From positions 6,160,501 to 6,224,500 of the forward strand of contig NZ_CP086106.1 of NCBI RefSeq assembly GCF_016765655.2: a stretch of DNA of 64,000 nucleotides, in the 5' to 3' direction. Positions 5,403-17,011 of this stretch are shown here, piece after piece. The DNA comes from Skermanella mucosa (GTDB lineage Bacteria > Pseudomonadota > Alphaproteobacteria > Azospirillales > Azospirillaceae). The translations under genes were made by a program, and so were the position numbers. Every line of letters begins with the position of its first letter. The first letter of the stretch is position 1. The notes under the pieces are model-generated. The model saw only the letters and a list, made by a program, of their open reading frames with translations. It made no database searches and had not been told where the DNA came from.

Positions 5403-7082
5403 TTAGCGACGATATAAGGTCATCATCAGCTTCGTACCGCGCGAATAATTAAGACCACTAATTGTTTCTATGGCAATCGGATGGAATCCCTTGGCTTCGG
5501 CTTCGGCCAGGAAGGCGTCGTCCTGCGGCAGGTCGACCAGGGCCAGTGCGCAGGCATCGTCCGCCAGGCGGTGGGCAGCCGCCCGGCCGTCGCCCGAAAG
5601 CACCGTCCCGGTCCCCACCAGGAAGACGAGGCTGGGTTCGGTGAAGCCGATGGACACCAGGGTCGAGTCGGGACAGGGCCGCGCCGCCGCGACCGCGGCG
5701 GCGACCCTGGGGCTGATCCAGATCTTCTCGATGCGGGGCAGGACGACCTGGAAGGCGAGCAGATACATCCCGAGCGACCCGGCGCTCACCACCGCGACCG
5801 AGCGACGCAGCCCGCCTCGGTGGAACAGCAGGGCGCCGTAGCCGAGCACCGCCGACACGGCGACAGCCAGCGGCAGGGCCGCCGGATCCAGCGTCCATTC
5901 GATCACCGCGTGCAGGGCGGCCAACCCGGCGGCGAGCACCGCGGCGATCAGGAGGAACAGCAGGATCGAGAGCAGGCGAAGCCATCGCCGCTCCCCTCCG
6001 AAACCGTCCAGCGCCGCGCGCGCGGTCAGCAGCGCCAGCGCCGGATAGGCCGGAAGCACGTAGTGAAACAGCTTGGTCGGCACCGCCTCGAAGACGATCC
6101 AGGTCGGAACGGCCCAGGCGAGGCAGAACAGCACCGCCGGATCCCGCCGGTTGGCCCAGACCCAGGGGATCGCCGGGATCGCCAGCAGGGACCAGGGCCA
6201 GAAGGTGACCGGAAACAGCAAGGTGTAGTAGCCGGGCGGGAACCCCTTGGATTCCTGCCCGCCGGCGACTTTGGCCAGCATGTCGTGGCCGACCGACTCG
6301 GCGAAGAAGGCGCCCTGGGTCTTGACGGTGATCAGGATCAGCCAGGGCGCCACGATCAGGAGGAGCACGGGCAGGCCCAGCCGGGGCCGCAGCGCGGCCA
6401 GCCAGCCGACCCGCCGCCCGGCGAGCGCCAAGCCCAGCGCGGTGCCGCCGACCACCAGCAGGATGATCGGTCCCTTCAGCAGGATGCCGATCCCGAGAGA
6501 GCACCAGAACAGCAGCGCCAGGCCGGTGGACAGGGCCTCCCGCCCGTTCCGCCGAAGCCAGGCCTCCGCCAGCGCCGCCTGCGCGCCCAGCACGGTCGCC
6601 AGCAGGGCCGCGTCCGTCTTGGCGGTGCGCGCCTCGACCGCGAGCAGGACGGTGCCGGCCAGCATCGCCGCGGCGAGAAACCCGGCGCGCTCGCCCGCCA
6701 GGGAACCGAACAGGGTGGTGCCGATCCGGAAGGTCAGCAGCACGGCGAGGACGGCCCCGGCGAGCGACGGCAGGCGGTAGGCCCAGATGGCGGCCTGCTC
6801 CGGCCCGCCCGCCAGCGTCACCGCCACCGACTGCATCCAGTAGATGCCGACCGGCTTCTTGTGCCTCGCCTCGTCCTGGAAGCGGATATCGACGAAATCG
6901 CCGCTCTCCAGCATCTGCCGGGTCGCCTGGGCGAAGCGGGCCTCGTCCCGGTCGGTCGGCGGCAGCACGAAGAAGCCCGGCAGGAACAAGGCCAGGCAGA
7001 GCGCCGCCAGCGCCGCCATCAGCCCGATCCGCCTGAGCAATGCCGGGAGGGAGCGGCCGGAGGGCGTGTCCGCGACGCTCAC
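5403..7082 (-). CDS. ArnT-like polyprenyl-phosphate-sugar transferase (GT83)
   Basis: A 559-residue multi-helix glycosyltransferase. After the first helix comes the acidic PPTDRDEARFAQATRQM motif (about residues 36-52) of the GT39/GT83 PMT/ArnT superfamily, then HKKPVGIYWMQS, which is also typical of ArnT. These enzymes move a sugar from undecaprenyl phosphate to lipid A or another periplasmic acceptor. The GTG start at 7082 overlaps the TGA of the preceding gene (GTGA), so it is translationally coupled; the frame is open further upstream but that reads out of frame through the LAB_N gene. It is the third gene of a GT2, LAB_N, GT83 operon. Acceptor and sugar are unknown. Confidence 0.88.
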   Translation of the reverse strand: MSVADTPSGRSLPALLRRIGLMAALAALCLALFLPGFFVLPPTDRDEARFAQATRQMLESGDFVDIRFQDEARHKKPVGIYWMQSVAVTLAGGPEQAAIWAYRLPSLAGAVLAVLLTFRIGTTLFGSLAGERAGFLAAAMLAGTVLLAVEARTAKTDAALLATVLGAQAALAEAWLRRNGREALSTGLALLFWCSLGIGILLKGPIILLVVGGTALGLALAGRRVGWLAALRPRLGLPVLLLIVAPWLILITVKTQGAFFAESVGHDMLAKVAGGQESKGFPPGYYTLLFPVTFWPWSLLAIPAIPWVWANRRDPAVLFCLAWAVPTWIVFEAVPTKLFHYVLPAYPALALLTARAALDGFGGERRWLRLLSILLFLLIAAVLAAGLAALHAVIEWTLDPAALPLAVAVSAVLGYGALLFHRGGLRRSVAVVSAGSLGMYLLAFQVVLPRIEKIWISPRVAAAVAAARPCPDSTLVSIGFTEPSLVFLVGTGTVLSGDGRAAAHRLADDACALALVDLPQDDAFLAEAEAKGFHPIAIETISGLNYSRGTKLMMTLYRR

Positions 7083-7396
7083 GATGCCGACGCGCGCCCG
7101 ATGTCGTCGGCGACCGCGTCGTCGCCGCACCTCGCGGCTTTGCGCTTGTCGCGCCAGATCATCCAGATGTTGCGGGAATAGATCACCAGCCCAAGCCCCT
7201 GCCCCAGGATGAACACGGGATCCTCCCGATGGATCGCGTAGGCCAGCAGCGTCACGCCGCCGGCGATGCTGAAATACCAGAAGGCCTCCGGCACGAAGCT
7301 GCGCTTGAGGCGCTCGCTCTGTATCCACTGGATCAGGAAGCGCATGGAGAACAGCGCCTGTCCCAGAAAACCGATCGCCGTCCAGACGATGACCAT
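7079..7396 (-). CDS. LAB_N-domain small membrane protein
   Basis: A 105-residue protein with three predicted helices and the motif FLGQALFSMRFLIQWIQSE followed by VPEAFWYFS, the lipid A biosynthesis N-terminal domain (LAB_N). Stand-alone LAB_N proteins usually sit between a DPM1-like glycosyltransferase and an ArnT-like transferase, as here. They are thought to help translocate the polyprenyl-phosphate sugar across the inner membrane, but that role is inferred. It is coupled to the next gene by a GTGA overlap. Confidence 0.87.
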   Translation of the reverse strand: MVIVWTAIGFLGQALFSMRFLIQWIQSERLKRSFVPEAFWYFSIAGGVTLLAYAIHREDPVFILGQGLGLVIYSRNIWMIWRDKRKAARCGDDAVADDIGRASAS

Positions 7397-7441
7397 CGAA
7401 TCACCCGATAGAGCCTGTATCGATGCCGCGCCATCGACCGA

Positions 7442-8248
7442 TCAGCGGACCTGCCCGGCAAAGTCCTCGAGGACGGAGTCAGGCAGGCGGGTACGGCGCT
7501 TCAACCACAGGACACCCATCAGGTCGACTATGCCGATGGCCGCACGTCCCAGATTGCCGTATTTCGAGACGCCGCGACGGCGCGCCCGATGATTGACCTC
7601 GACGAAGGCGACGCCATGCCCGTGGATCTGGAACAGGGCGGGAAGGAACCGGTGCATGGCCCCGAAATAAGGCAGATCCAGGAAGGCGTCGCGGCGGAAC
7701 ACCTTGATGCCGCACCCGGTGTCGGCGCAGCCGTCGTTCAGGACGGCCTGGCGCAAGCCGTTGGCGATCCGCGTGGCGACCCGCTTGGACCATATGTCGC
7801 GGCGCTTGCGCCGGATCCCGCCGACCAGCGCCGGCGCGCCGGGCATCATCGCCAGGTCCAGCAGGTTGGGAATGTCGGCGGGATCGTTCTGCCCGTCGCC
7901 GTCGAGCGTCGCGATCCAGGTCCCCCGGGCGGCCCGGACGCCGGTGCGCACGGCGGCGCTCTGGCCCGATCGGGTGGAATGCCGGACGACGCGCACGGCG
8001 CCCGGTTCCGCGGCGAGCCGTCCGGCGGTGCCGTCGTCGCTGCAGTCATCGACGAAGATCACCTCGTACTCCACGGACGCGGCGAGCGCCGCCCGGATCT
8101 CCCCCAGCAGAGGCGCGACGTTTTCCGCCTCGTTGTAGACGGGGACGACCACCGAGAGCCGCGGCTCCGAAGGGAAGTAGGCCGACTGGCCGGCGGCAGG
8201 CGCCGCGGCGGCGGGGGACTCGGCGGTGGGTAAGACGGCGGTGACCAT
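7442..8248 (-). CDS. GT2 glycosyltransferase, DPM1/ArnC-like
   Basis: A 268-residue family 2 glycosyltransferase with SVVVPVYNEAENV (about 31-43), VIFVDDCSDDGT (about 65-76) and TLDGDGQNDPADIP (about 118-131, DxD region), the signature of enzymes that load sugars from nucleotide donors onto polyprenyl phosphate. No long C-terminal membrane helices are evident, so it resembles the soluble or peripheral DPM1 form. The start at 8248 follows an AGGGG Shine-Dalgarno; a longer frame to 8341 has an atypical leader. It heads the three-gene lipid-linked sugar operon. Confidence 0.88.
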   Translation of the reverse strand: MVTAVLPTAESPAAAAPAAGQSAYFPSEPRLSVVVPVYNEAENVAPLLGEIRAALAASVEYEVIFVDDCSDDGTAGRLAAEPGAVRVVRHSTRSGQSAAVRTGVRAARGTWIATLDGDGQNDPADIPNLLDLAMMPGAPALVGGIRRKRRDIWSKRVATRIANGLRQAVLNDGCADTGCGIKVFRRDAFLDLPYFGAMHRFLPALFQIHGHGVAFVEVNHRARRRGVSKYGNLGRAAIGIVDLMGVLWLKRRTRLPDSVLEDFAGQVR

Positions 8249-8415
8249 GGAACCCCTGAGGCATGGCGGCAGGTTGGCCGCATCATAACCATACCCGGGA
8301 TAGAAGAAAGTAAATTGGAGGATCCCAAATATAGATAACAAAAATTTAACGGTAGTTACTTGGACGCGGCAAAGCGCCGCACAGCCTTTTATTCAGCTCC
8401 CACTTCCCGGACTGG

Positions 8416-9105
8416 TTACGGAATCAGCCGGTACCCTCCCGGTTCGGTTACCAGGATCTCCGCATGGGAAGGATCGCGCTCGATCTTCTGGCGCAGGCGA
8501 TAGACATGGGTTTCCAGCGTGTGGGTGGTGACCCCGGCATTGTAGCCCCAGACCTCGCCCAGAAGGGTGTCGCGGCCGACCACCTTCTCGCCGGCGCGGT
8601 AGAGGAACTTGAGGATCGCCGTCTCCTTCTCGGTCAGCCTGATCTTGCGGTTGCCGGCCTCGTTCATCAGGAGCTTGACGCTGGGGCGGAAGGTGTAGGG
8701 GCCGATGGAGAAGACCGCGTCCTCGCTCTGCTCGTACTGGCGCAGCTGGGCGCGCAGCCGGGCCAGCAGCACGCTCAGCCGGAACGGCTTCGTCACATAG
8801 TCGTTGGCGCCGCTGTCGAGGCCCAGGATGGCGTCGCTGTCGGTGCCGGCCGCCGTCAGCATGATGATCGGGCTGCGCACGCCTTCGCGCCGCATCAGGC
8901 GGCACAGCTCGCGCCCGTCCATGTCGGGCAGGCCGACGTCGAGCAGGACGGCGTCGAACACGCCGTGGCGGATCAGGTTCAAGGCGGCCGAGGCGTCGTC
9001 CGCCTCGGCCGTCTCGAACTCCTCGAGGAGATGAAGCTGTTCGGCCAGCGACTGGCGCAGCGCCACGTCGTCATCGACCAGCAGGATCTTCTTGCCCGGC
9101 GTCAT
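8416..9105 (-). CDS. OmpR/PhoB-family DNA-binding response regulator
   Basis: A 229-residue two-component regulator. The receiver domain (1-120) has the acidic pocket VDDD at 10-13, the phosphoacceptor Asp56 in LLDVGLPDMDG, Thr in MLTAAGT, and Lys in DYVTKPF. The C-terminal winged helix carries LTEKETAILKFLYRA and HTLETHVYRLRQKIE. The start at 9105 has AGGGGA upstream; the frame continues further upstream only into untypical sequence. It resembles the alphaproteobacterial CenR-like branch of envelope regulators, a weak assignment from sequence character. No cognate histidine kinase is in the window, so it is an orphan by context. Confidence 0.9.
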   Translation of the reverse strand: MTPGKKILLVDDDVALRQSLAEQLHLLEEFETAEADDASAALNLIRHGVFDAVLLDVGLPDMDGRELCRLMRREGVRSPIIMLTAAGTDSDAILGLDSGANDYVTKPFRLSVLLARLRAQLRQYEQSEDAVFSIGPYTFRPSVKLLMNEAGNRKIRLTEKETAILKFLYRAGEKVVGRDTLLGEVWGYNAGVTTHTLETHVYRLRQKIERDPSHAEILVTEPGGYRLIP

Positions 9106-9181
9106 CGCATCCCCTGTTAGGGTCCCGTTCGGCACCTGGGCGCCCAGCACCGGCCCCGGCGGGGACGCGGATGCGGGATCC

Positions 9182-9466
9182 TCAGCGCTGGACCTCGACT
9201 CCCCGCCAGAACGCGACATGATCCCTGATGGCCGCCGCCGCTTCCTTGGGTTCCGGATAATACCATGCGGCATCGCGGTTTTCGACGCCATCAACCACGA
9301 GCGTGTGGTAATGGGCGGTACCCTTCCAGGGGCAGACGGTCGTGGTGGAGGATGGTTTGAAATAATCGCGCCTGAGCGCAGCCGGCGGAAAATACACGTT
9401 GCCTTCGACCAGCTCGAAGCTGTCCGACTCCGCGATCACTGCGCCGTTCCAGAGTGCCTTGGCCAT
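9182..9466 (-). CDS. DUF427 domain protein
   Basis: A 94-residue protein covering one complete DUF427 domain: AKALWNGAVIAESDSFELVEGNVYFP at the start, TTTVCPWKGTAHYH in the middle, and AWYYPEPKEAA near the end. The CPWKG(T)A(H/S)Y core is the family hallmark. The fold is a small beta barrel of unknown biochemical role. The start at 9466 follows GGGAGGAC at ideal distance; the longer open frame to 9631 runs across the region before tRNA-Leu and is rejected. Function unknown. Confidence 0.88.
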   Translation of the reverse strand: MAKALWNGAVIAESDSFELVEGNVYFPPAALRRDYFKPSSTTTVCPWKGTAHYHTLVVDGVENRDAAWYYPEPKEAAAAIRDHVAFWRGVEVQR

Positions 9467-9587
9467 GTCCGTCCTCCCGCGTCGATGCCGTACCGCGTGC
9501 CGGTACCGGGAGAGACATAGGCCGATCGGAGCGGCGGGGGAGACCCGCGATCCGTTACCGCGCCGCTTTGAAGCCACCCTCGGAGGA

Positions 9588-9674
9588 TGGTGCCCAGGAG
9601 AAGACTCGAACTTCCACGACATTTCTGCCACAGGTACCTGAAACCTGCGCGTCTACCAATTCCGCCACCTGGGC
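9588..9674 (-). tRNA. tRNA-Leu (anticodon CAG)
   Basis: An 87-nt class II tRNA with encoded CCA. The 7-bp acceptor stem pairs GCCCAGG with CCTGGGC. The D-arm reads GGCGGAATTGGTAGACGCG, as in other leucine tRNAs; the anticodon stem CAGGT/ACCTG encloses TTCAGGT, giving anticodon CAG for CUG codons. A long variable arm and a GTTCGAGTC T-loop follow. It lies 12 bases beyond the stop of the methyltransferase gene on the same strand, so it could be reached by readthrough or have its own promoter. Confidence 0.97.
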
Positions 9675-9686
9675 AGCGCGGACCGG

Positions 9687-10532
9687 CTAGATACTGTGAC
9701 CGGCGGCGGCTGTCAAAGGCTTTCGGCGCGGTTCCGCGAAAATATCGACATGGCCGACCAGGGCCTCCAGGACGCCCGCTTGCGCGGCCGCGCGGCGGCG
9801 TTCCGCCCAGCCCTCGATCGCCGGGGAACAGCCGTCCGGCGCGATCTCCCGGGCAGCACCCCGATAGCCTTCGATCAGGGCCAGATGCATGGCGACGTCG
9901 GCCGGCCCGATGGTCCAGTCGCTGGCGGCGGTCTCGACCGCGAAGCCGTTGGCCCGCAGGGCATCGGCCAGCCGCGTCGGGGCTTCCGGCCCGAGGGCGG
10001 GGCCGAAGCCCTTGTCGGTCGCCTGATGCCGCTCGATCCAGCCGCGCATCGCGGCGTCCTGCGGGTCTTCGGGCGACCAGCGGAGCCGCCCGTCGACGCT
10101 CAGCGTGACAAGCACCGGTCTGGGCGCCCCCGCCAGGGCGGCGACGAAGCGGTCCATCCAGGCGGCTGAAACGAGGTCGAACAGGGCCGTCGCGACGATG
10201 GCGTCGAACTGCCGGAAATCCAGGGTCTCCAGGTCGCTCGACAGATCGACGCTGCGGGTCTCGAAGGCGGGCAGGGGATGCGCGCCGACAGCCAACTCCT
10301 CCGCGACCGCGCCGAGCAGGACGGGATCATGGTCGGCCAGCACCCAGCGCTGGCCCGGACGCCGGAGGCGCGGCGACAGGTGGCGCAGGTTCGCGCCGGT
10401 GCCGGCGGCGAGATCGAGCAGGCGCGGGCTGTCCGGCAGCGCCGCGGCGAAGCGCCGGGTCAGCGATCCGTCCCGGGCGGCATCGTCGAACGGCGCCCGC
10501 AGGCGCAGCCAGTCCCGGTCGAAGCCGCCCAT
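9687..10532 (-). CDS. class I SAM-dependent methyltransferase
   Basis: A 281-residue protein with a Rossmann SAM-binding core. Motif I is LLDLAAGTGANLRHL (about residues 38-52), followed by WVLADHDPVLL (acidic end of strand 2), and FDAIVATALFDLVSAAW further on as motif IV. It is the last gene of a five-gene minus-strand unit, 18 bases after the glycosyltransferase stop. No particular substrate class is recognisable. Context suggests it methylates a product of the flavin/pterin-like pathway or its glycoside, which is inference. Confidence 0.8.
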   Translation of the reverse strand: MGGFDRDWLRLRAPFDDAARDGSLTRRFAAALPDSPRLLDLAAGTGANLRHLSPRLRRPGQRWVLADHDPVLLGAVAEELAVGAHPLPAFETRSVDLSSDLETLDFRQFDAIVATALFDLVSAAWMDRFVAALAGAPRPVLVTLSVDGRLRWSPEDPQDAAMRGWIERHQATDKGFGPALGPEAPTRLADALRANGFAVETAASDWTIGPADVAMHLALIEGYRGAAREIAPDGCSPAIEGWAERRRAAAQAGVLEALVGHVDIFAEPRRKPLTAAAGHSI

Positions 10533-10550
10533 GTCCTGTCTCCCGGATGC

Positions 10551-11636
10551 TCAATCGCCCGTGGCGCACAAGCGCAGCCGGGGCTCCAGGCCGGCCAGCT
10601 CGGCGGCGAAACGGTCGGCCGCGTCGTCCCAGGTCGGCAGGCACCGGGCCGCGGACCGCGCCGCCGAGGTCAGCCGGGACCGCAACCCGCCGTCCGTCAG
10701 CAACAGCCGCAGCGCGTCTCGGAGCGCCGCGGCGTCGCCGGGCGGGACCAGGATCGCGGCATCCTCCGGCACGGTGGTCGGAATGGCGCCGGCGCGGGTG
10801 CTGACGATCGGCAGCCCGTGGGACAGCGCCTCCGCCAGCGCCATGCCGTATCCCTCGTAGTAGGAGGGCAGCACGAACAGGTCGGCGCCATGGTACTGGC
10901 TGGGCATCGCCGCGGGGCCGATCTCGTCCATCAGGGCGATCCTGCCGGTCAGCCCGTGGCGCAAGATCGCGTCCTGCACCGCCGCGGCGGCCCCGGCATC
11001 GCGCCTGGTGCTGCCGATGCAGGTGAGTTTCCAGGGCAGGTCGGCAAGGCCGGCCAGGGCTTCGACCAGCAGCAGGTGGCCCTTGCGCGGCGTGACGGTG
11101 GCGACGCACAGCAGGTTCGGCTCCGGCGTCCCGGAGCCGGCGGCCGGCCCCTCGGGCCGGTCGGTCCCGGGCTCGACGACGCCCAGACGGTCCGGCGTCA
11201 CGTGGAACCCGGACAGCAGAGCTTGCGCGGTGTAGGGGCTGGTCACGACCACGCGGTGGACACGGGCGAGGCAGCCTTGTTCCAGTTGCCGCAGGGTGCG
11301 CGCCTGCGCCTCGTCCAGCCCGGTTTCCAGCGACAGGGGATGGTGGACCAGCGCCATCAGGCGCAGCCGGTGGTTCTCGATCATCAGGCTGCCGGCGACG
11401 CCCGGCAGCGCCAGCCCGTCGATCACCACCAGGGCGCCGTCGGGCAGGCGGGACAGCACGCGGTCCGCCTCGTAGATCGCTTCCTGGTCGACGATCGGGT
11501 AGGGGCCGGGCAGCTCGTGGACATGGACCGGGATACCGCGCGCCCGCAGGCCCGCGACGATGCGGGCGTCGTAGATGTAGCCGCCGGTCTTCTGGTCGAG
11601 GCGGCCGGGCAGAACCAGATGGACGTCCAGGCTCAT
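10551..11636 (-). CDS. GT4-family glycosyltransferase
   Basis: A 361-residue GT-B glycosyltransferase. The N-terminus has the [17 protein letters not shown] acceptor-side segment. The C-terminal donor domain has [20 protein letters not shown] and the EX7E motif in [12 protein letters not shown] (about residues 260-271), then [16 protein letters not shown]. The start at 11636 overlaps the stop of the PTPS-like gene by four bases (ATGA), so the two are coupled. A longer open frame upstream runs through that gene and is discarded. The acceptor is unknown; its place among nucleotide-derived-cofactor enzymes is unusual. Confidence 0.85.
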
Positions 11637-12049
11637 CGAGCCGCATCCCCCTGGAGCGGACCCTCGAACGTGGCCCAGGCGATATGGGACTCGTGAAGGG
11701 TGACCTTGAGGCTGTCGAGGCCCAGCCCGCCCTCGCCCAGCGCGCCGTCCAGGATGCGGGCGCCCAGGCGGCGGTGGATCTCGCCGCACAGGAACTCGGT
11801 CGTCGTGTTGACGCCGGAAAGCTCCTCGACCTCGTCCAGGTTCCGGTAGTTCAGCGGCTTCAGGACCTCGGCGAGCAGGGCGGCGGCCATCCCGATATCG
11901 ACCACGAGGCCGTCGGCGTCGAGTTCGCGCCGGCGCATCTCCAGGTCGCATATGAAGGTGGCGCCATGGAGCTTCTGGGCGGGGCCGAACACCGCGCCCT
12001 TGAAGCTGTGCGCGATCATGATGTGATCCCGCACGGTCAGGCTGTACAT
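11633..12049 (-). CDS. PTPS/QueD-family protein with altered active site
   Basis: A 138-residue member of the 6-pyruvoyl-tetrahydropterin synthase / 6-carboxytetrahydropterin synthase fold. The family frame is clear (IAHSF at 12-16, KLHGATF at 26-32, C-terminal LHESH). However, the usual CxxxHGH metal/catalytic motif reads AxxxHGA: Ala24 replaces the catalytic Cys and Ala30 replaces the second His of HGH. The usual LDHHYLN is LNYRNLD, losing the catalytic Asp-His pair. The C-terminal Glu (HES) is kept. It is therefore unlikely to carry out ordinary QueD or PTPS chemistry. It lies 25 bases after the MDR dehydrogenase and overlaps the GT4 gene. Confidence 0.82.
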
Positions 12050-12074
12050 CGGCGAAGTCCTCCGTTCCGGTTCG

Positions 12075-13106
12075 TCATCGGGCGCCGCCGTAGCGGACCA
12101 GATGGCAGATCTGATTTGCGGGCTGATCGCCGGGCGTCAGCGCGAGTTTGGGAAAAATATCTGTTAGGTCAGCAAACAAACATGATCCGGTCAAGAGGAT
12201 ATCCGGCCTTGAATCCTTCAGCAGGTCGAGGGCCAGGGTCAAGCGGTCGCGGTAACTCCAGCGCGACCGCATGGCCGGTGCCACCGCCCCGACCTGGCTG
12301 GACACCAGGCGGAGCCGGCGCGGATGGAAGGCGGCGCCGAGGGGTGCCGCGACCGGCCGGGTGCCGTACCAGCTGGCCTCCACCACCGTCGCCTCGAACC
12401 CGGCGAGCGCCAGCGCCGTGACGAGGCCGTCGGGATTGCCGCTGGCATGGATCACTATGTCGCAGTCCCCCGACGCCGCCTCCGGCAGCGCGAACCCGAC
12501 GCCCAGCGCCTCGGCCACGGCGGCGCGGGCCGGATCGACGTCGATCAGCTCGACCCGGGCGGCGGGGATCCGGGCCGCCAGCCAGGCCGTCAGGCAGCCG
12601 ACGACGCCGCCGCCGATCACCGCGATCCGGCTGCCGACCGGGGGCAGGGCGTCCCACAGGATGTTGACCGCCGTCTCCATGTTGGCGGCCAGCGCGGCGC
12701 GATCGGCCGGCACGCCGTCCGGGACCGGCACGACGGCGTCGGCGGGAACGACGAACCGGTCCTGGTGCGGGTGCAGGCAGAACACCCGCCGGCCCGCCAG
12801 CGCGGCCGGACCCCGCTCGACCACGCCGACCATGCAGTAGCCGTACTTGACCGGGCCGGGGAAGTCGCCTTCCTGGAACGGGCAGCGCATGGTGTCGAAC
12901 AACTCCGGCGGCACCTTGCCCTGGAACACCAGGCTCTCGGTGCCGCGGCTGACGGCGCTGACCTCGGCGCGGACCAGCACCTCGCCGGGACCGGGGCCGG
13001 GCAGGGGCGCCTCGCGCAGCTCCCCCCGGCCGGGGGCCACGGTCCAGAACGCGGTGGCGGTATCGGTCGGCGGGTCGTTCGGGATGGGATCAGCCACGCA
13101 GGTCAC
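12075..13106 (-). CDS. MDR-superfamily dehydrogenase lacking zinc ligands
   Basis: A 343-residue medium-chain dehydrogenase/reductase. The GroES-like N-terminal half includes [18 protein letters not shown], and the Rossmann half has [15 protein letters not shown] and [10 protein letters not shown] for NAD(P) binding. The position of the first catalytic-zinc Cys (usually C-GTD/S) is Ser in AVSRGTE, and the GHE motif is replaced by PVKYGY, so a catalytic zinc is not expected; the four-Cys structural lobe is also missing. It overlaps the RibD-like gene by 17 bases and precedes the PTPS-like gene, so it belongs to that pathway. Substrate unknown. Confidence 0.82.
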
Positions 13107-13941
13107 AATCGAACAGGATGTCCGTTCCCAGGACGAAATGGCGCGACTTCGGCCGCAGTCCGCCGTCGATCGTCTCGATCTCCGGCAAGGTGAAGCTGGG
13201 CCGGCCGGATCCCAGGATCAGCGGCGCCACGGTGACCTGGAGCCGGTCGAGGCAGCCGGCCTGGAGGAAGCGGGACACGGTCACGCCGCCGCCCTCGATG
13301 AAGACGAACTCCAGGCCCCGGTCGGCCAGCAGCGCCAGGATGCCGCCGGGATCGAGCCCGGCGCCGCACCGGGGCAGCCCGAGCACTTCGGCGGCGCCGA
13401 CGCGCTCGCCGGGCCGCGCCCGGTCGTGGGCGCACAGCAGCAGCGTCGGCGCGGCGCCGTCGTGGAAAATCCCCTGGCTGCCGTCGAGCCGGCGGTTGGT
13501 GTCGACCACGACCCGCACCGGGTTGCGCCCCTCGCACAGCCGGACGGTCAGCTTGGGATCGTCGTGCCGCACGGTGCCGGCCCCGACCAGGACGGCGTCC
13601 GACAGCGCGCGCATGCGGTGATTGTGCAGGATGTCCTCGGGACCGGTCACCCACTGGGAGGCGCCGCACAGGGTCGCGATCCTGCCGTCCAGGCTCTGCC
13701 CCAGATGGGCGACGGCATAGCGCCCGGGCGGCCTTCCTGCGCACAGGGGAAGATAGAGGTCGCACAGGAGGAGGCTTTCGCCATCCGCCGGCCCGATGCC
13801 GCCCCGGATGGCGTCCGCGGTCGGCGGCATGGCCGGGCCGGGTCCCCCGCGGCCATGCCGGAGGTCGAGGATCGCCCGCCAGAGCCGGTCCGGATCGGAA
13901 GCGGGCGAGGAGCCCGCGAGGGAGGGTTCGGTACTATCCAT
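13090..13941 (-). CDS. RibD C-terminal-type (DHFR-fold) pyrimidine reductase
   Basis: A 283-residue protein whose residues from about 75 onward are a complete RibD reductase domain: [47 protein letters not shown] and [12 protein letters not shown]. The deaminase domain of bacterial RibD is absent; the first 75 residues are a poorly conserved leader. In archaea and fungi, stand-alone reductases of this kind reduce the ribosyl side chain of the GTP cyclohydrolase II product before deamination. ATG at 13941 (preceded by TAGGG) is preferred over a TTG two codons earlier. It is first in the minus-strand operon, divergent from the CDP-alcohol transferase and RibA-like unit. Confidence 0.85.
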
Positions 13942-14050
13942 GATCAAGCCCTACCAATTGCCCTCTCCGTCCCGCTTTACCAGTCCCCCGTTCAAGGTAA
14001 TTCCCGCGGGCCTCCATCGACAGGACCCGAGCCCTTTACCATCGCATTTT

Positions 14051-14908
14051 ATGCACCAATTATCGTCAATGGCTTACGGATCGACCGACAGCGCCCACAG
14101 GGAACCCGGGCAGGGAATGCCGGCGACGGCCCGGCTCTTCCTCAGCGTCGCCCTGCACATGGCGGCGGGCGGCGTGCTGACGGCCGCCGCCGCGGTGGCG
14201 CTGGGCGATCTGGCCGGCCTGCCCGGCATCTATCCCCTGACCGCCATGGGCTGCTACGCGATCGTCGCGGTGCTGATGCTGCTCCACCTGCGCGGGCACG
14301 CGCCCCATGCCCGTTTCGGCGCCGCCAACCGGGTGACGCTGCTGCGCGGCGTGATCGCCAGCCTGATCGGCGGGACGATCCCGGTGATCCGGCATCTCTC
14401 GCCCGAAGCGCTTTGGGTCGTCTCGCTGGCGGCTCTGCTGGCGCTGGTGCTGGACGGGGTGGACGGCTGGGTCGCCCGGCGGACGCGGATGGCGACCCCG
14501 TACGGCAAGCAGCTGGACATCAATTTCGACACGGTCCTGATGGGCATCCTCGCGGTGCTGGCATGGCAGGACGGCAAGGCGGGCGCATGGGTGCTGGCGA
14601 TCGGGCTGGCGCGCTACGGCTTCGTCGCCGCCGGCTGGGTCTGGCCCATGCTGAACGCCGAGCTGCCGTTCAGCCAGCGGCGCCGGGTCATCTGCGTCGT
14701 GCAGATCGCGGTCCTCCTGGCCTGCATCCTGCCGGTGGTCCAGCCGCCGCTCAGCAGCCTTGCGGCCGCAGCGGCACTTGGCCTTTTGCTTTTCTCCTTC
14801 GCGGTCGATACGCTTTGGCTGGTGAAGGCCGGCGTGGACGATGGCACGCGGACGGACGGGTATCGCGACAGGGACCCCGCCGCCGAGCCTACCCGGACCG
14901 ACATCTGA
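14051..14908 (+). CDS. CDP-alcohol phosphatidyltransferase family protein
   Basis: Polytopic membrane enzyme with the full CDP-alcohol phosphotransferase signature, D-x2-DG-x2-AR-x9-G-x3-D-x3-D (DGVDGWVARRT, then GKQLDINFD), so the catalytic aspartates are intact. Six or so hydrophobic helices are visible. Homologues transfer a phosphoalcohol from a CDP-linked lipid or CDP-activated polar group. The start is uncertain: ATG at 14051, 14069 and 14117 are all possible; the last has AGGG only one base away. It is divergent from the RibD-like operon (109 bp between) and 39 bases before the RibA-like gene, so it belongs to the same cluster. Confidence 0.85.
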   Translation: MHQLSSMAYGSTDSAHREPGQGMPATARLFLSVALHMAAGGVLTAAAAVALGDLAGLPGIYPLTAMGCYAIVAVLMLLHLRGHAPHARFGAANRVTLLRGVIASLIGGTIPVIRHLSPEALWVVSLAALLALVLDGVDGWVARRTRMATPYGKQLDINFDTVLMGILAVLAWQDGKAGAWVLAIGLARYGFVAAGWVWPMLNAELPFSQRRRVICVVQIAVLLACILPVVQPPLSSLAAAAALGLLLFSFAVDTLWLVKAGVDDGTRTDGYRDRDPAAEPTRTDI

Positions 14909-14947
14909 CAGCCCGCTCCACTTTCCACGGACATCAAGAAAAGAACA

Positions 14948-16108
14948 ATGACCTCCCCCAGTCTCGCCAAACTGACGGACGACCTGTCCCAACCCCTCGA
15001 TCAGACGGCCCTGCGGTCGGTCGATCGTGCGATCGGCGAGCTGCGGCGCGGCGATCCCGTCCTGGTGGAGGATCTGGAGGGGAGCCTCGCCCTGGCGCTG
15101 TCGGTGGAAGCGGTGACGGCGGAGGCGCTGGACGGTCTCAGGAAATCGGCCGGAGCATCCCCTGTGCTCGCGGTCACCCGGCCGCGCGCCGCGGCGATCG
15201 GGCTGTCCGGGCAGCAGGCGCCGGTGGTCACGCTGGCGCTGAGCGGCGGCCTGGATGCCGACGCGATCCACACGCTGGTAGATCCGACGCGGCGGACGCC
15301 CCAGGGTCCCGTCCCGGCCCTGAGCGTGGCGCCGGCCGAGCTGGGAACCCGCGAGGGAGCGGCCGTGGCGCTGGCCAAGCTGGCGCGCCTGCTGCCGGCC
15401 GCCGTCGTCGCTCCGGTCCGGCTGCCGCGCGGGACCACGGCGGTGACCTGGGCCGCCAAGCACGACCTGATGCTGGTGCGGGCGCGGGACATCCTGGACT
15501 ACCAGACCCATGCGGCGCGGACGCTGACCCTGGTCGGCGACGCCGCGGTGCCGCTGGTCGATGCCGAGAACACGCGGGTGCTGGCATTCCGTCCGCCCGA
15601 CGGCGGAGTCGAACATCTGGCGATCGTGATCGGCGATCCCTCCGCCGAAGACGGCCCGGCGCTGGTCCGGCTGCATTCGGAATGCTTCACCGGCGACCTG
15701 CTGGGCTCGCTCCGCTGCGACTGCGGCGACCAGCTCCGCGGCGCCATCGCGGAGATTGCCCGGCAGGGCAGCGGCATCGTGTTCTACCTGGCGCAGGAGG
15801 GCAGGGGTATCGGGCTGGTCAACAAGCTGCGGGCCTACCAGCTTCAGGACGACGGGTTCGACACGGTCGAGGCCAACGAGATGCTGGGCTTCGACGCCGA
15901 CGAGCGGATATATCTTCCGGCGGCGGAGATGCTGCGCCAGCTGGGGTTCTCCCAGGTGCGGCTGCTGACCAACAACCCGGACAAGCTGCGCCAGCTGGCG
16001 CGCTGCGGGATCGAGGTGGTCGACCGGGTGCCCCATGTCTTCCCCAGCAACGGCCACAACGAAGCCTATCTGAAGACCAAGGCCGAACGCAGCGGCCACA
16101 TGTTCTGA
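14948..16108 (+). CDS. ribA: GTP cyclohydrolase II with vestigial RibB-like N-terminal domain
   Basis: A 386-residue RibBA-type two-domain protein. The C-terminal domain (about 210-386) is an intact GTP cyclohydrolase II: zinc Cys in HSECFTGDLLGSLRCDCG (C-x10-C-x-C), YLAQEGRGIGL, DTVEAN and LLTNNPDK. It should open the GTP ring to the diaminopyrimidinone phosphate. The N-terminal domain aligns by length with DHBP synthase, but the DDEDRENEGDL metal motif reads EDLEGSLALAL and the GHTEAAVDLA motif reads GTREGAAVALA, so DHBP synthase activity is unlikely. The normal riboflavin gene is probably elsewhere. Context with a reductase, PTPS-like protein and transferases suggests a specialised GTP-derived pathway. 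Confidence 0.9.
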   Translation: MTSPSLAKLTDDLSQPLDQTALRSVDRAIGELRRGDPVLVEDLEGSLALALSVEAVTAEALDGLRKSAGASPVLAVTRPRAAAIGLSGQQAPVVTLALSGGLDADAIHTLVDPTRRTPQGPVPALSVAPAELGTREGAAVALAKLARLLPAAVVAPVRLPRGTTAVTWAAKHDLMLVRARDILDYQTHAARTLTLVGDAAVPLVDAENTRVLAFRPPDGGVEHLAIVIGDPSAEDGPALVRLHSECFTGDLLGSLRCDCGDQLRGAIAEIARQGSGIVFYLAQEGRGIGLVNKLRAYQLQDDGFDTVEANEMLGFDADERIYLPAAEMLRQLGFSQVRLLTNNPDKLRQLARCGIEVVDRVPHVFPSNGHNEAYLKTKAERSGHMF

Positions 16109-16193: not shown

Positions 16194-16922
16194 TTACTCG
16201 GCGCCGCCGGAATGCGCGGCCGGGTAGGGGGAAGCCTGGGTCACCTCGGGAGCCGCCGGCGGCTCGGCCGGGGTCGTCGGCATCCGCGCGATGGAGGCCG
16301 AATTGGCTGTCAGCACCTGGATCTCGCCGATCAGCTGGCCGCCGGCCTCGACCTCCAGCTCGCCGTAGCGGATCGCGCCGTTGATCTTGCCGGTGGAGCG
16401 CAGGCGCAGGCGGCCGCGCACGCTGATGTCGCCCTCGAACCGGCCGGCGATGTCCGCCTCGTCGATCTCGACGCTGCCCTTGAACAGGCCGGACTCGGCG
16501 ATCTCGATGTTGCGGCCGTCCCGCAGCTTGGCTTCGACCGTCCCTTCGACCACCAGCACGTCGCAGGCGGTGATCTCGCCCGAGAGCGAAATGTCGCGGC
16601 CGACGATCAGCTTGCGCATCTCGGTGGCGCCGGTGGACAGGGACGAGCCGGAAACCGAGGAGCCGGTCGAAGGCGCCGCCAGACCCTCGCCCAAGGGGCG
16701 GCGCGCCGGGGCACCCGGAATCTCGACCACGCGGCGCGGAATTTCGGGCTTGAAGGAGGTGCTGGAAGACGGCGGTTTGATCGGCGACATATCTTGTCCC
16801 TTATCGGCAAACGGGGAACGCACCGGCGGCTCGGTGGCCACCGCTTCGGGCGCGGCCGGCTCGACCGGCATGGCGCCTTCGGGTTTCAGCGGTCCGGCGG
16901 GCGGTGACTTGCGTCGAAACAT
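16194..16922 (-). CDS. bactofilin (polymer-forming cytoskeletal protein)
   Basis: A 242-residue protein with a Pro/Ser-rich disordered N-terminus (about 1-105) and a right-handed beta-helical bactofilin domain (about 105-215), seen as short repeating strands: LIVGRDISLSGEITACDVLVV, then IEIAESGLFKGSVEIDEADIAGRFEGDISVRGRL. The tail is again low complexity. Bactofilins form filaments without nucleotide and position peptidoglycan or chromosome-segregation factors; some alphaproteobacterial ones work near ParABS, interesting here beside parAB. The start at 16922 gives MFRRKSPP; a longer frame is less likely. A CtrA-like half-matched site lies 76 bases upstream. Confidence 0.9.
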   Translation of the reverse strand: MFRRKSPPAGPLKPEGAMPVEPAAPEAVATEPPVRSPFADKGQDMSPIKPPSSSTSFKPEIPRRVVEIPGAPARRPLGEGLAAPSTGSSVSGSSLSTGATEMRKLIVGRDISLSGEITACDVLVVEGTVEAKLRDGRNIEIAESGLFKGSVEIDEADIAGRFEGDISVRGRLRLRSTGKINGAIRYGELEVEAGGQLIGEIQVLTANSASIARMPTTPAEPPAAPEVTQASPYPAAHSGGAE

Positions 16923-17011
16923 GGGCGATGGCCCCCAAAGGCAGGGTGGATGACGGCTGGCCACAAAACGGCTGGCCATAAAAATGAGCCGTCATGGTTA
17001 ACTCTTTATTA

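Follow-up and report, generated by a model that had tools for sequence, protein, structure and literature searches.

The subject of this paper is a divergent cluster of seven genes from Skermanella mucosa, at positions 9687 to 16108 of a 64,000-nucleotide stretch of contig NZ_CP086106.1 (positions 6,160,501 to 6,224,500; the whole stretch is called the window below). The genes encode a GTP cyclohydrolase II (RIBA), a RibD_C-type reductase (RIBD), a protein with the PTPS/QueD fold (PTPS), an MDR dehydrogenase (MDR), a GT4 glycosyltransferase (GT4), a class I S-adenosylmethionine (SAM)-dependent methyltransferase (MT) and a CDP-alcohol phosphatidyltransferase (CDPPT). The cluster looks like a dedicated pathway that occurs in at least two major bacterial groups and leads from GTP to a pyrimidine or pterin that is methylated, carries a sugar and may be anchored to the membrane. 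We give an even chance to the reading that the locus is a conserved biosynthetic pathway of its own, branching from GTP at the first intermediate of riboflavin synthesis. This reading is supported by the co-occurrence of MDR and PTPS, a separate cluster-type group of RIBA sequences, an altered residue in RIBD, an invariant glutamate (Glu110) in PTPS, and an invariant motif in CDPPT. The original prediction for this DNA was a pathway for a glycosylated, GTP-derived pyrimidine or pterin. It survives as far as the cluster is a conserved unit distinct from the riboflavin operon, but the ribA gene is probably shared, and the PTPS-like protein should not be a classical one.

Conservation and core of the cluster

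Two sets of loci were compared. The named loci are the best 80 of at least 584 MDR-encoding stretches detected across a collection of genomes at species level, and are biased to similarity because they were chosen as the best MDR matches. The less biased sample is a set of 398 Pseudomonadota genomes, searched with cut-offs of E<=1e-40 for MDR and E<=1e-15 for the PTPS variant; the 26 loci newly fetched from it are called the sampled loci. MDR orthologues are present in 27 of the 398 genomes, the Skermanella genome included (about 7%), and the PTPS-variant matches come from the same 27 genomes, plus one weak match at 5e-16. The two genes lie side by side in all 26 sampled loci, a co-occurrence that is far above chance. 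In Actinomycetota, the corresponding count is 8 of 296 (E below 1e-40, search centre included).

PTPS is present in all 26 sampled loci, GT4 in 25, RIBD in 22, MT in 18, CDPPT in 12 and RIBA in 11, and further genes encode a flippase-like protein (11), an FkbM methyltransferase (8) and a creatininase-family protein (6). The 80 named loci include Streptomyces, Halomonas, Thauera, Variovorax, Thioalkalivibrio, Niveispirillum and one acidobacterial metagenome-assembled genome. They contain PTPS (76), GT4 (75), CDPPT (72), MT (70), the flippase-like gene (56), the creatininase gene (53), RIBA (52) and RIBD (41, of which two are low-scoring non-orthologues). Streptomyces and Halomonas share the layout of the window. 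Wherever CDPPT occurs in the named loci it is divergent from MDR (72/72), and PTPS, where present, is always on the MDR strand (76/76). Among closer relatives, MDR orthologues at 55-94% identity were found in the genus of the window, its family, and one other family of the class. In the window and 14 relatives' loci, PTPS, GT4 and MT accompany MDR in 15/15, RIBA in 11/15, CDPPT in 9/15 and RIBD in 7/15, with creatininase and flippase-like genes in 0/15.

The core of the cluster is MDR-PTPS-GT4, usually joined by RIBD or MT or both. The variable members are RIBD, MT, CDPPT, RIBA, the creatininase-family gene and the flippase-like gene; MT was not counted as core because it is rarer than RIBD in the sampled loci. 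That the seven genes be conserved together in relatives had been a condition set for the original prediction. Both Pseudomonadota and Actinomycetota indeed conserve the gene set as a unit, but all seven are not always present (RIBA 11/26, CDPPT 12/26).

The alignments were A1 (the window and 14 of 17 relatives; L046, with a split frame, and L047 and L048, at contig ends, left out), A2 (the window and 14 of 16 relatives; L042, with a stop at the chosen end, and L048 left out), and four thinned alignments of the window with 31/69 (A3), 30/70 (A4), 26/61 (A5) and 20/40 (A6) usable rows. The all-against-all comparison covered 70 loci, most Streptomyces being excluded. The split frame of L046 (about 9340-10298, minus strand) is such that the MDR of genome G016 matches as two overlapping pieces in different frames, from a frameshift or a sequencing error. 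A TenA/PQQC-family gene, the family being taken from one representative, is found near the cluster in 8/80 named loci (L122, L075, L091 and five others).

Enzymes of the cluster

In E. coli QueD, Cys27 is catalytic and His33 is the third zinc histidine, and in pterin enzymes the Glu at position 110 holds the 2-amino-4-oxo ring. Cys27 and His33 are both Ala, and the catalytic His71 is gone, in 93/93 orthologues of the cluster PTPS. His16, His31, Glu86 and Glu110 are retained, Glu110 in 93/93, and there is a new invariant His9. With the catalytic Cys, the catalytic His and the third zinc His lost throughout, the protein is not expected, on known chemistry, to have PTPS or QueD activity. Of the features of a PTPS/QueD-like protein, as it was first called, it keeps the Pfam PTPS match and the ring-binding Glu. 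At E<=1e-5, the family profile has a single relative in the PDB, 3d7j, which is SCO6650 of Streptomyces coelicolor. A separate QueD-like protein with a CxxxHGH motif is present in the Skermanella genome.

The window RIBD has no deaminase domain in Pfam, and its best PDB matches are the archaeal-type reductases 2azn and 6p8c, ahead of bacterial RibD. At the site of Lys152 in E. coli RibD, the cluster RIBDs carry Gln (52), His (14, the window among them), Ser (2, both being the low-scoring non-orthologues) or Arg (2), and Lys in 0/70; one further row (L120) has no residue there. Both E. coli RibD and the RibD encoded elsewhere in the Skermanella genome have Lys. By its residue at this site, the window RIBD would not be of the bacterial RibD type. 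Its lone reductase domain and non-Lys site fit the archaeal and fungal type (ArfC/RIB7), which acts on 2,5-diamino-6-ribosylamino-4(3H)-pyrimidinone 5'-phosphate (DARPP). According to the accessible part of PMC3631187, archaea have Asn and fungi Thr at this site, and the T35K change in yeast RIB7 shifts its preference towards the deaminated substrate. Together with the non-Lys site, this suggests that the cluster RIBD probably reduces a non-deaminated (2-amino) intermediate, and the ring-binding Glu retained in PTPS agrees with such a substrate. The prediction of a RIB7-like reductase is supported by the archaeal matches and the site residue.

The genome (98.6% complete) has two PF00925 matches. 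One is the window RIBA, and the other is a RibBA encoded elsewhere in a riboflavin operon (G000:C1:5507661-5512440) that has ribD, riboflavin synthase, RibBA and ribH. The prediction that the cluster is not the riboflavin operon was therefore supported, and that identity was rejected, because the required domains are not in the seven window proteins and the full set lies elsewhere. As to the riboflavin genes said to be missing, there is no deaminase, lumazine synthase or riboflavin synthase domain in the seven proteins, but RIBA has a partial RibB-like stretch, matching DHBP_synthase at 26.7 bits against a cut-off of 26.4 (profile 117-191 of 191). The operon RibBA (L049 8186-9373, minus strand) has lost two of its three zinc cysteines and the QEGR motif, and so appears to have a dead, RibBX-like cyclohydrolase domain. 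The window RIBA retains the three zinc cysteines, QEGR and Tyr105 (E. coli numbering), the residues expected of a canonical, DARPP-forming GTP cyclohydrolase II. It is the only intact-looking enzyme of this kind found in its genome.

Of ten searched genomes of the family in which no MDR orthologue was found, nine have an intact RIBA at 55-69% identity to that of the window (best tblastn match), and the tenth, G011, gave weaker matches only. In a tree of 38 chosen RIBA rows (midpoint root, Met-type RIBAs not included), the window RIBA lies in a 24-row group, mostly of genes from the same family with and without the cluster. Its placing is tentative, with moderate support (82/77). This grouping with the RIBAs of cluster-less relatives suggests that it probably also feeds riboflavin, and that it is a housekeeping enzyme beside or within the cluster, a view that is supported, not proven. 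A separate group of seven cluster-type RIBAs has support of 98/97, and comprises Halomonas-type sequences, Thauera (the same gene twice), Methyloversatilis, G013 and G049; L043 and L044 are long branches in it, and the cluster RIBA of L070 is unplaced. Another intact GTP cyclohydrolase II is present in G049 and G013, and also in Halomonas and Streptomyces genomes (from a search of 29 of 30 entries, L054 being out). These lineages therefore appear to carry a dedicated cluster paralogue. It had been proposed that the prediction would fail if the window RIBA were the only GTP cyclohydrolase II in the genome and needed for riboflavin. It is indeed the only intact one found, and the need is probable; however, a shared RIBA does not refute the pathway, because other lineages have a separate cluster enzyme.

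At the position of E. coli Tyr105, 34 RIBAs, all from Streptomyces, have Met, and a creatininase-family gene is found in 34/34 of their loci. There are 29 Tyr-type RIBAs, with a creatininase gene in 15 loci and none in 14, the window among the latter; one RIBA fragment (L009) has no residue at the site. Hence the idea that the creatininase gene goes only with the Met type was rejected. Spoonamore and Bandarian are said to have found that SCO6655 forms the formyl compound FAPy owing to Met in place of Tyr; the Tyr-type window RIBA falls outside this FAPy-forming type. A Met-type RIBA with a creatininase is a good fit to FAPy formation followed by deformylation in Streptomyces, by analogy with Sinorhizobium BrbF (SMc02977), which was first annotated as a creatininase, deformylates FAPy and feeds riboflavin, as described in the available text of PMC9478397. 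Three creatininase-family genes lie outside the window in the Skermanella genome (L132, L133, L134), one of them about 11 kb past the window end.

The usual Streptomyces order is PTPS-GT4-MT-flippase-creatininase-RIBA, which by gene numbering would correspond to SCO6650 to SCO6655, and SCO6652 would then be the cluster methyltransferase. In the part of PMC3610822 that was accessible, SCO6652 is a hypothetical protein with log2 values of 0.8, 4.3 and 4.1 for second versus first mycelium, the columns presumably being 24, 48 and 72 h, that is the substrate, aerial and spore stages. SCO6655 is listed as a GTP cyclohydrolase II of riboflavin metabolism in a metabolic model paper (PMC2853524, accessible part), and the accessible parts of PMC3239331, PMC7288161, PMC13028884 and PMC7017516 add nothing on it.

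In three Streptomyces genomes (G063:C15, G079:C29 and G082:C25), another GTP cyclohydrolase II has a low-scoring RibD_C protein nearby, that of G063 lying outside L062. Perhaps these pairs belong to a second uncharacterised pyrimidine cluster.

MDR is below every Pfam cut-off, and its best NCBIfam match, BchC, reaches 52 bits against a cut-off of 291, so that by this measure it would not be a BchC dehydrogenase. The AlphaFold model of MT has a mean predicted local distance difference test (pLDDT) score of 95.2, with the methyltransferase 3mgg as its top Foldseek match (6.9e-13), and is that of a class I SAM methyltransferase. In CDPPT, the motif DxxDGxxAR...GxxxDxxxD, which in a helical membrane fold marks the CDP-alcohol phosphotransferases, is invariant in 27 sequences. 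The model (pLDDT 87) resembles CDP-diacylglycerol enzymes, being nearest in Foldseek to phosphatidylglycerol phosphate synthase 7drk (E 0.003, template modelling score on the target 0.72), with further matches to AF2299, phosphatidylserine synthase and phosphatidylinositol phosphate synthase.

Proposed pathway and its alternatives

In the proposed pathway, GTP cyclohydrolase II would open GTP to give DARPP. In the Streptomyces type, the Met variant would probably make FAPy, from which the creatininase-family formamidase would take off the formyl group. Where RIBD is present, it would reduce DARPP to the ribityl form, with no deamination. The PTPS-fold protein would use its conserved Glu to bind the 2-amino-4-oxo ring, and would rearrange or cyclise the side chain, and the BchC-like MDR would oxidise a side-chain hydroxyl. 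GT4 and the SAM methyltransferase would then glycosylate and methylate the product, and CDPPT, with the flippase-like protein in many relatives, would attach a phospho-alcohol or lipid. In Skermanella, riboflavin synthesis and the cluster pathway probably share a single ribA. We infer the order of the steps and all of the chemistry after DARPP; the gene families, their conservation and the states of the active sites come directly from sequence comparison.

A number of observations weigh against this proposal, the strongest being that loci with the core often lack RIBA and RIBD. RIBA is missing from 15/26 sampled loci. RIBD is missing from 4/26 of these, from 8/14 relatives' loci, and from 35/41 actinobacterial named loci, whereas it is present in 33/39 of the others (cut-off 100 bits). 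A cluster-type RIBD elsewhere was found in none of the 13 RIBD-less genomes searched (the RibD_C proteins of G063, G079 and G082 score 73-77 bits, against at least 374 for the cluster type, and were rejected), and it follows that reduction by RIBD cannot be obligatory. Nor is an intact GTP cyclohydrolase II always evident. In G064 (Thiocapsa), whose locus lacks PTPS, the only PF00925 match is degenerate. G059 and G072, whose clusters have RIBD and no RIBA, have only one degenerate RibBA and one divergent, longer cyclohydrolase-like protein (L251, L250; about 440 residues, with C...CxC and KEGR), and G070 has one degenerate match and one with intact cysteines and HEGR. The 34 Met-type loci may count as a single event, because all are from Streptomyces, and 15/29 Tyr-type RIBAs lie beside a creatininase gene where a formamidase should be unneeded. 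Four of the 80 named loci (L065, L067, L078, L063) have MDR without PTPS, GT4 or MT, and the structural matches of CDPPT are all above E 0.001. No search found a product, a substrate or mutant evidence. Nor was any account of the cluster, its pathway or its product found in the literature, which is weak evidence of absence, as subscription papers were mostly outside the search.

Several of these points would suit a glycolipid or polar-lipid pathway whose substrate is not derived from GTP, with ribA (and in some lineages ribD) adjacent by chance or through shared regulation, and the PTPS fold co-opted for another ring or a sugar. The loci without RIBA (15/26) and the actinobacterial loci without RIBD (35/41) speak for it, as do the window ribA orthologues in nine cluster-less relatives, the lost catalytic residues of PTPS, and the resemblance of CDPPT to lipid enzymes. 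It sits poorly with the separate cluster-type RIBA group in genomes that have another intact copy (G049, G013), with the Halomonas cluster RIBA alongside a further intact ribA, and with the constant company of Met-type RIBA and a creatininase gene. Also against it, RIBD, with its substrate residue consistently altered, is found in 22/26 loci, and the ring-binding Glu of PTPS is invariant. A lipid pathway of this kind is possible, but we consider it rather unlikely. An accessory flavin route, in which DARPP and its ribityl form would supplement the supply for riboflavin or for some secreted flavin derivative, appears quite improbable, even though the window ribA is the only intact one found in its genome, a RIBD-type reductase is present, and riboflavin synthesis in Sinorhizobium is fed by a FAPy formamidase (PMC9478397, available text). 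Apart from the partial RibB-like stretch, the seven proteins have no deaminase, RibB, lumazine synthase or riboflavin synthase domain, and the full riboflavin set is elsewhere in the genome. The steadiest partners in the cluster are PTPS, MDR and GT4, which are not flavin enzymes. A search of the locus for riboswitches, the flavin mononucleotide (FMN) type included, turned up only a tRNA, and FMN riboswitch control was rejected. The Pfam match would suggest that the PTPS-like protein acts as PTPS or QueD in a classical pathway to pterins (biopterin-type) or 7-deazapurines (queuosine), which is strongly disfavoured: both the queuosine and the biopterin version were rejected on the residues gone in 93/93 orthologues, the genome has its separate QueD-like protein with CxxxHGH, and none of the seven window proteins has a GTP cyclohydrolase I domain.

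The preferred reading of a dedicated branch from GTP can be extended to a new class of molecule. This would be a diaminopyrimidine or 8-ribityl-pterin-like compound, glycosylated and methylated, on a membrane phospholipid; as a membrane-bound relative of flavins or pterins it would serve redox or light protection, and Streptomyces and Proteobacteria would feed it by two chemically different openings of GTP. If SCO6652 is the cluster methyltransferase, Streptomyces would make the compound chiefly in its aerial hyphae and spores. Taken jointly, these proposals are unlikely to hold as they stand, and we put them forward as speculation.

Layout of the locus and known systems

The layout first described for the locus (seven open reading frames (ORFs), with their positions and families) was confirmed with Pfam and NCBIfam. 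Direct reading also bore out the ATGA overlap at 11633-11636 (GT4 start, PTPS stop), the RIBD/MDR overlap at 13090-13106, where MDR begins with GTG, and the 109-bp divergent gap, bounded by ATG at 13941 and ATG at 14051. The latter ATG is not present in 2/5 aligned genus sequences, and the true start of CDPPT may therefore be at 14069.

Table 1. Features of the cluster, in window coordinates
Feature	Position	Strand	Basis
Class I SAM-dependent methyltransferase (MT)	9687..10532	-	Methyltransf_12 1.6e-5, below cut-off; AlphaFold/Foldseek
GT4 glycosyltransferase (core gene)	10551..11636	-	Pfam Glyco_trans_1_4 3e-26
PTPS/QueD-fold protein, remodelled active site (core gene; SCO6650 family)	11633..12049	-	Pfam PTPS 2e-19
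MDR dehydrogenase, BchC-like (core gene)	12075..13106	-	NCBIfam BchC 5e-14, below cut-off
RibD_C-type reductase without deaminase domain (RIBD)	13090..13941	-	Pfam RibD_C 1e-39 (ORF 13090-13947)
Divergent intergenic region, 109 bp (127 bp with the downstream start at 14069)	13942..14050		Blocks conserved in five genus sequences
CDP-alcohol phosphatidyltransferase (CDPPT)	14051..14908 (start may be 14069)	+	Pfam CDP-OH_P_transf 1e-13
GTP cyclohydrolase II (RIBA), partial RibB-like N-terminal part	14948..16108	+	Pfam GTP_cyclohydro2 6e-58

Several neighbouring genes were noted. A tRNA-Leu (CAG) gene (9588-9674, minus strand) lies 12 bp downstream of MT, and a long DUF427 ORF (9182-9631) begins inside it, so that the start of the ORF is probably placed too early. 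Following the cluster is a response regulator (8416-9294, minus strand; OmpR-type by eye), which is matched in 9/17 relatives' loci and is a possible regulator of the cluster. Next to this, an adjoining cassette (5403-8341, minus strand) encodes a GT2 glycosyltransferase, a small membrane protein and an ArnT/PMT-like protein (the last two by eye); its GT2 and PMT-like proteins have matches only in the four congeners among the 17 relatives' loci. At the other side, a bactofilin gene (16194-16979, minus strand) faces the ribA end. The divergent CDP-alcohol gene is retained in three of the four named loci without PTPS, and in L065 a sulfatase-like membrane protein is encoded alongside. A defence system was also considered and rejected, the only indication being a weak methyltransferase match to mad2.

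The analysis gives a genomic context to two S. coelicolor orphans, SCO6650, with a solved but unexplained structure, and SCO6655, with its reported FAPy activity. About 7% of the sampled Pseudomonadota and some Actinomycetota, with tractable laboratory hosts among them, would on this evidence share a conserved metabolite, and a family with the PTPS fold is seen to have given up the known catalytic residues. It is also a warning that the ribA of the Skermanella genome is not to be read as a gene of the cluster pathway alone.

Among known systems, toxoflavin-type clusters contain a GTP cyclohydrolase II, a methyltransferase and a bifunctional deaminase-reductase. The window shares the pairing of GTP cyclohydrolase II with a methyltransferase, but its reductase has no deaminase domain, and it has in addition a PTPS fold, a GT4 and a CDP-alcohol enzyme. 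The comparison made in the original prediction was thus not borne out, and a cluster of this type was rejected. The 8-azaguanine cluster was set aside, as its putative cyclohydrolase gene is for GTP cyclohydrolase I, according to the accessible part of PMC7109123. In Aeromonas and Shewanella, the cyclohydrolase domain of a RibBA-like (RibBX) protein is dead and the activity comes from a separate ribA (PMC10012899, accessible part). Skermanella resembles this arrangement in its apparently dead operon protein and separate ribA, and differs in that the ribA is embedded in an unexplained cluster.

The upper pathway of riboflavin and F420 synthesis in archaea (ArfA, ArfB, ArfC), together with fungal RIB7, has a reductase without deaminase and with a non-Lys site, as here, and the creatininase-family gene in cluster relatives of the window is a further likeness. 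In contrast to the archaeal pathway, the cluster would open GTP by GTP cyclohydrolase II, not III, it adds PTPS-fold, MDR, GT4 and lipid-type enzymes, and in the window it has no lumazine synthase. BrbF is comparable in that cluster proteins from two relatives belong by Pfam match to the creatininase family; its known role is in riboflavin, however, whereas that of the cluster creatininase is putative, and the gene is absent from the window locus. A further comparison is with SCO6650-SCO6655 of S. coelicolor, where SCO6650 is close to a Streptomyces cluster PTPS over its whole length. The Streptomyces RIBA is short and of the Met type, while that of the window is longer, Tyr-type and probably housekeeping; the window also has a RIBD, and neither a creatininase nor a flippase gene in its cluster.

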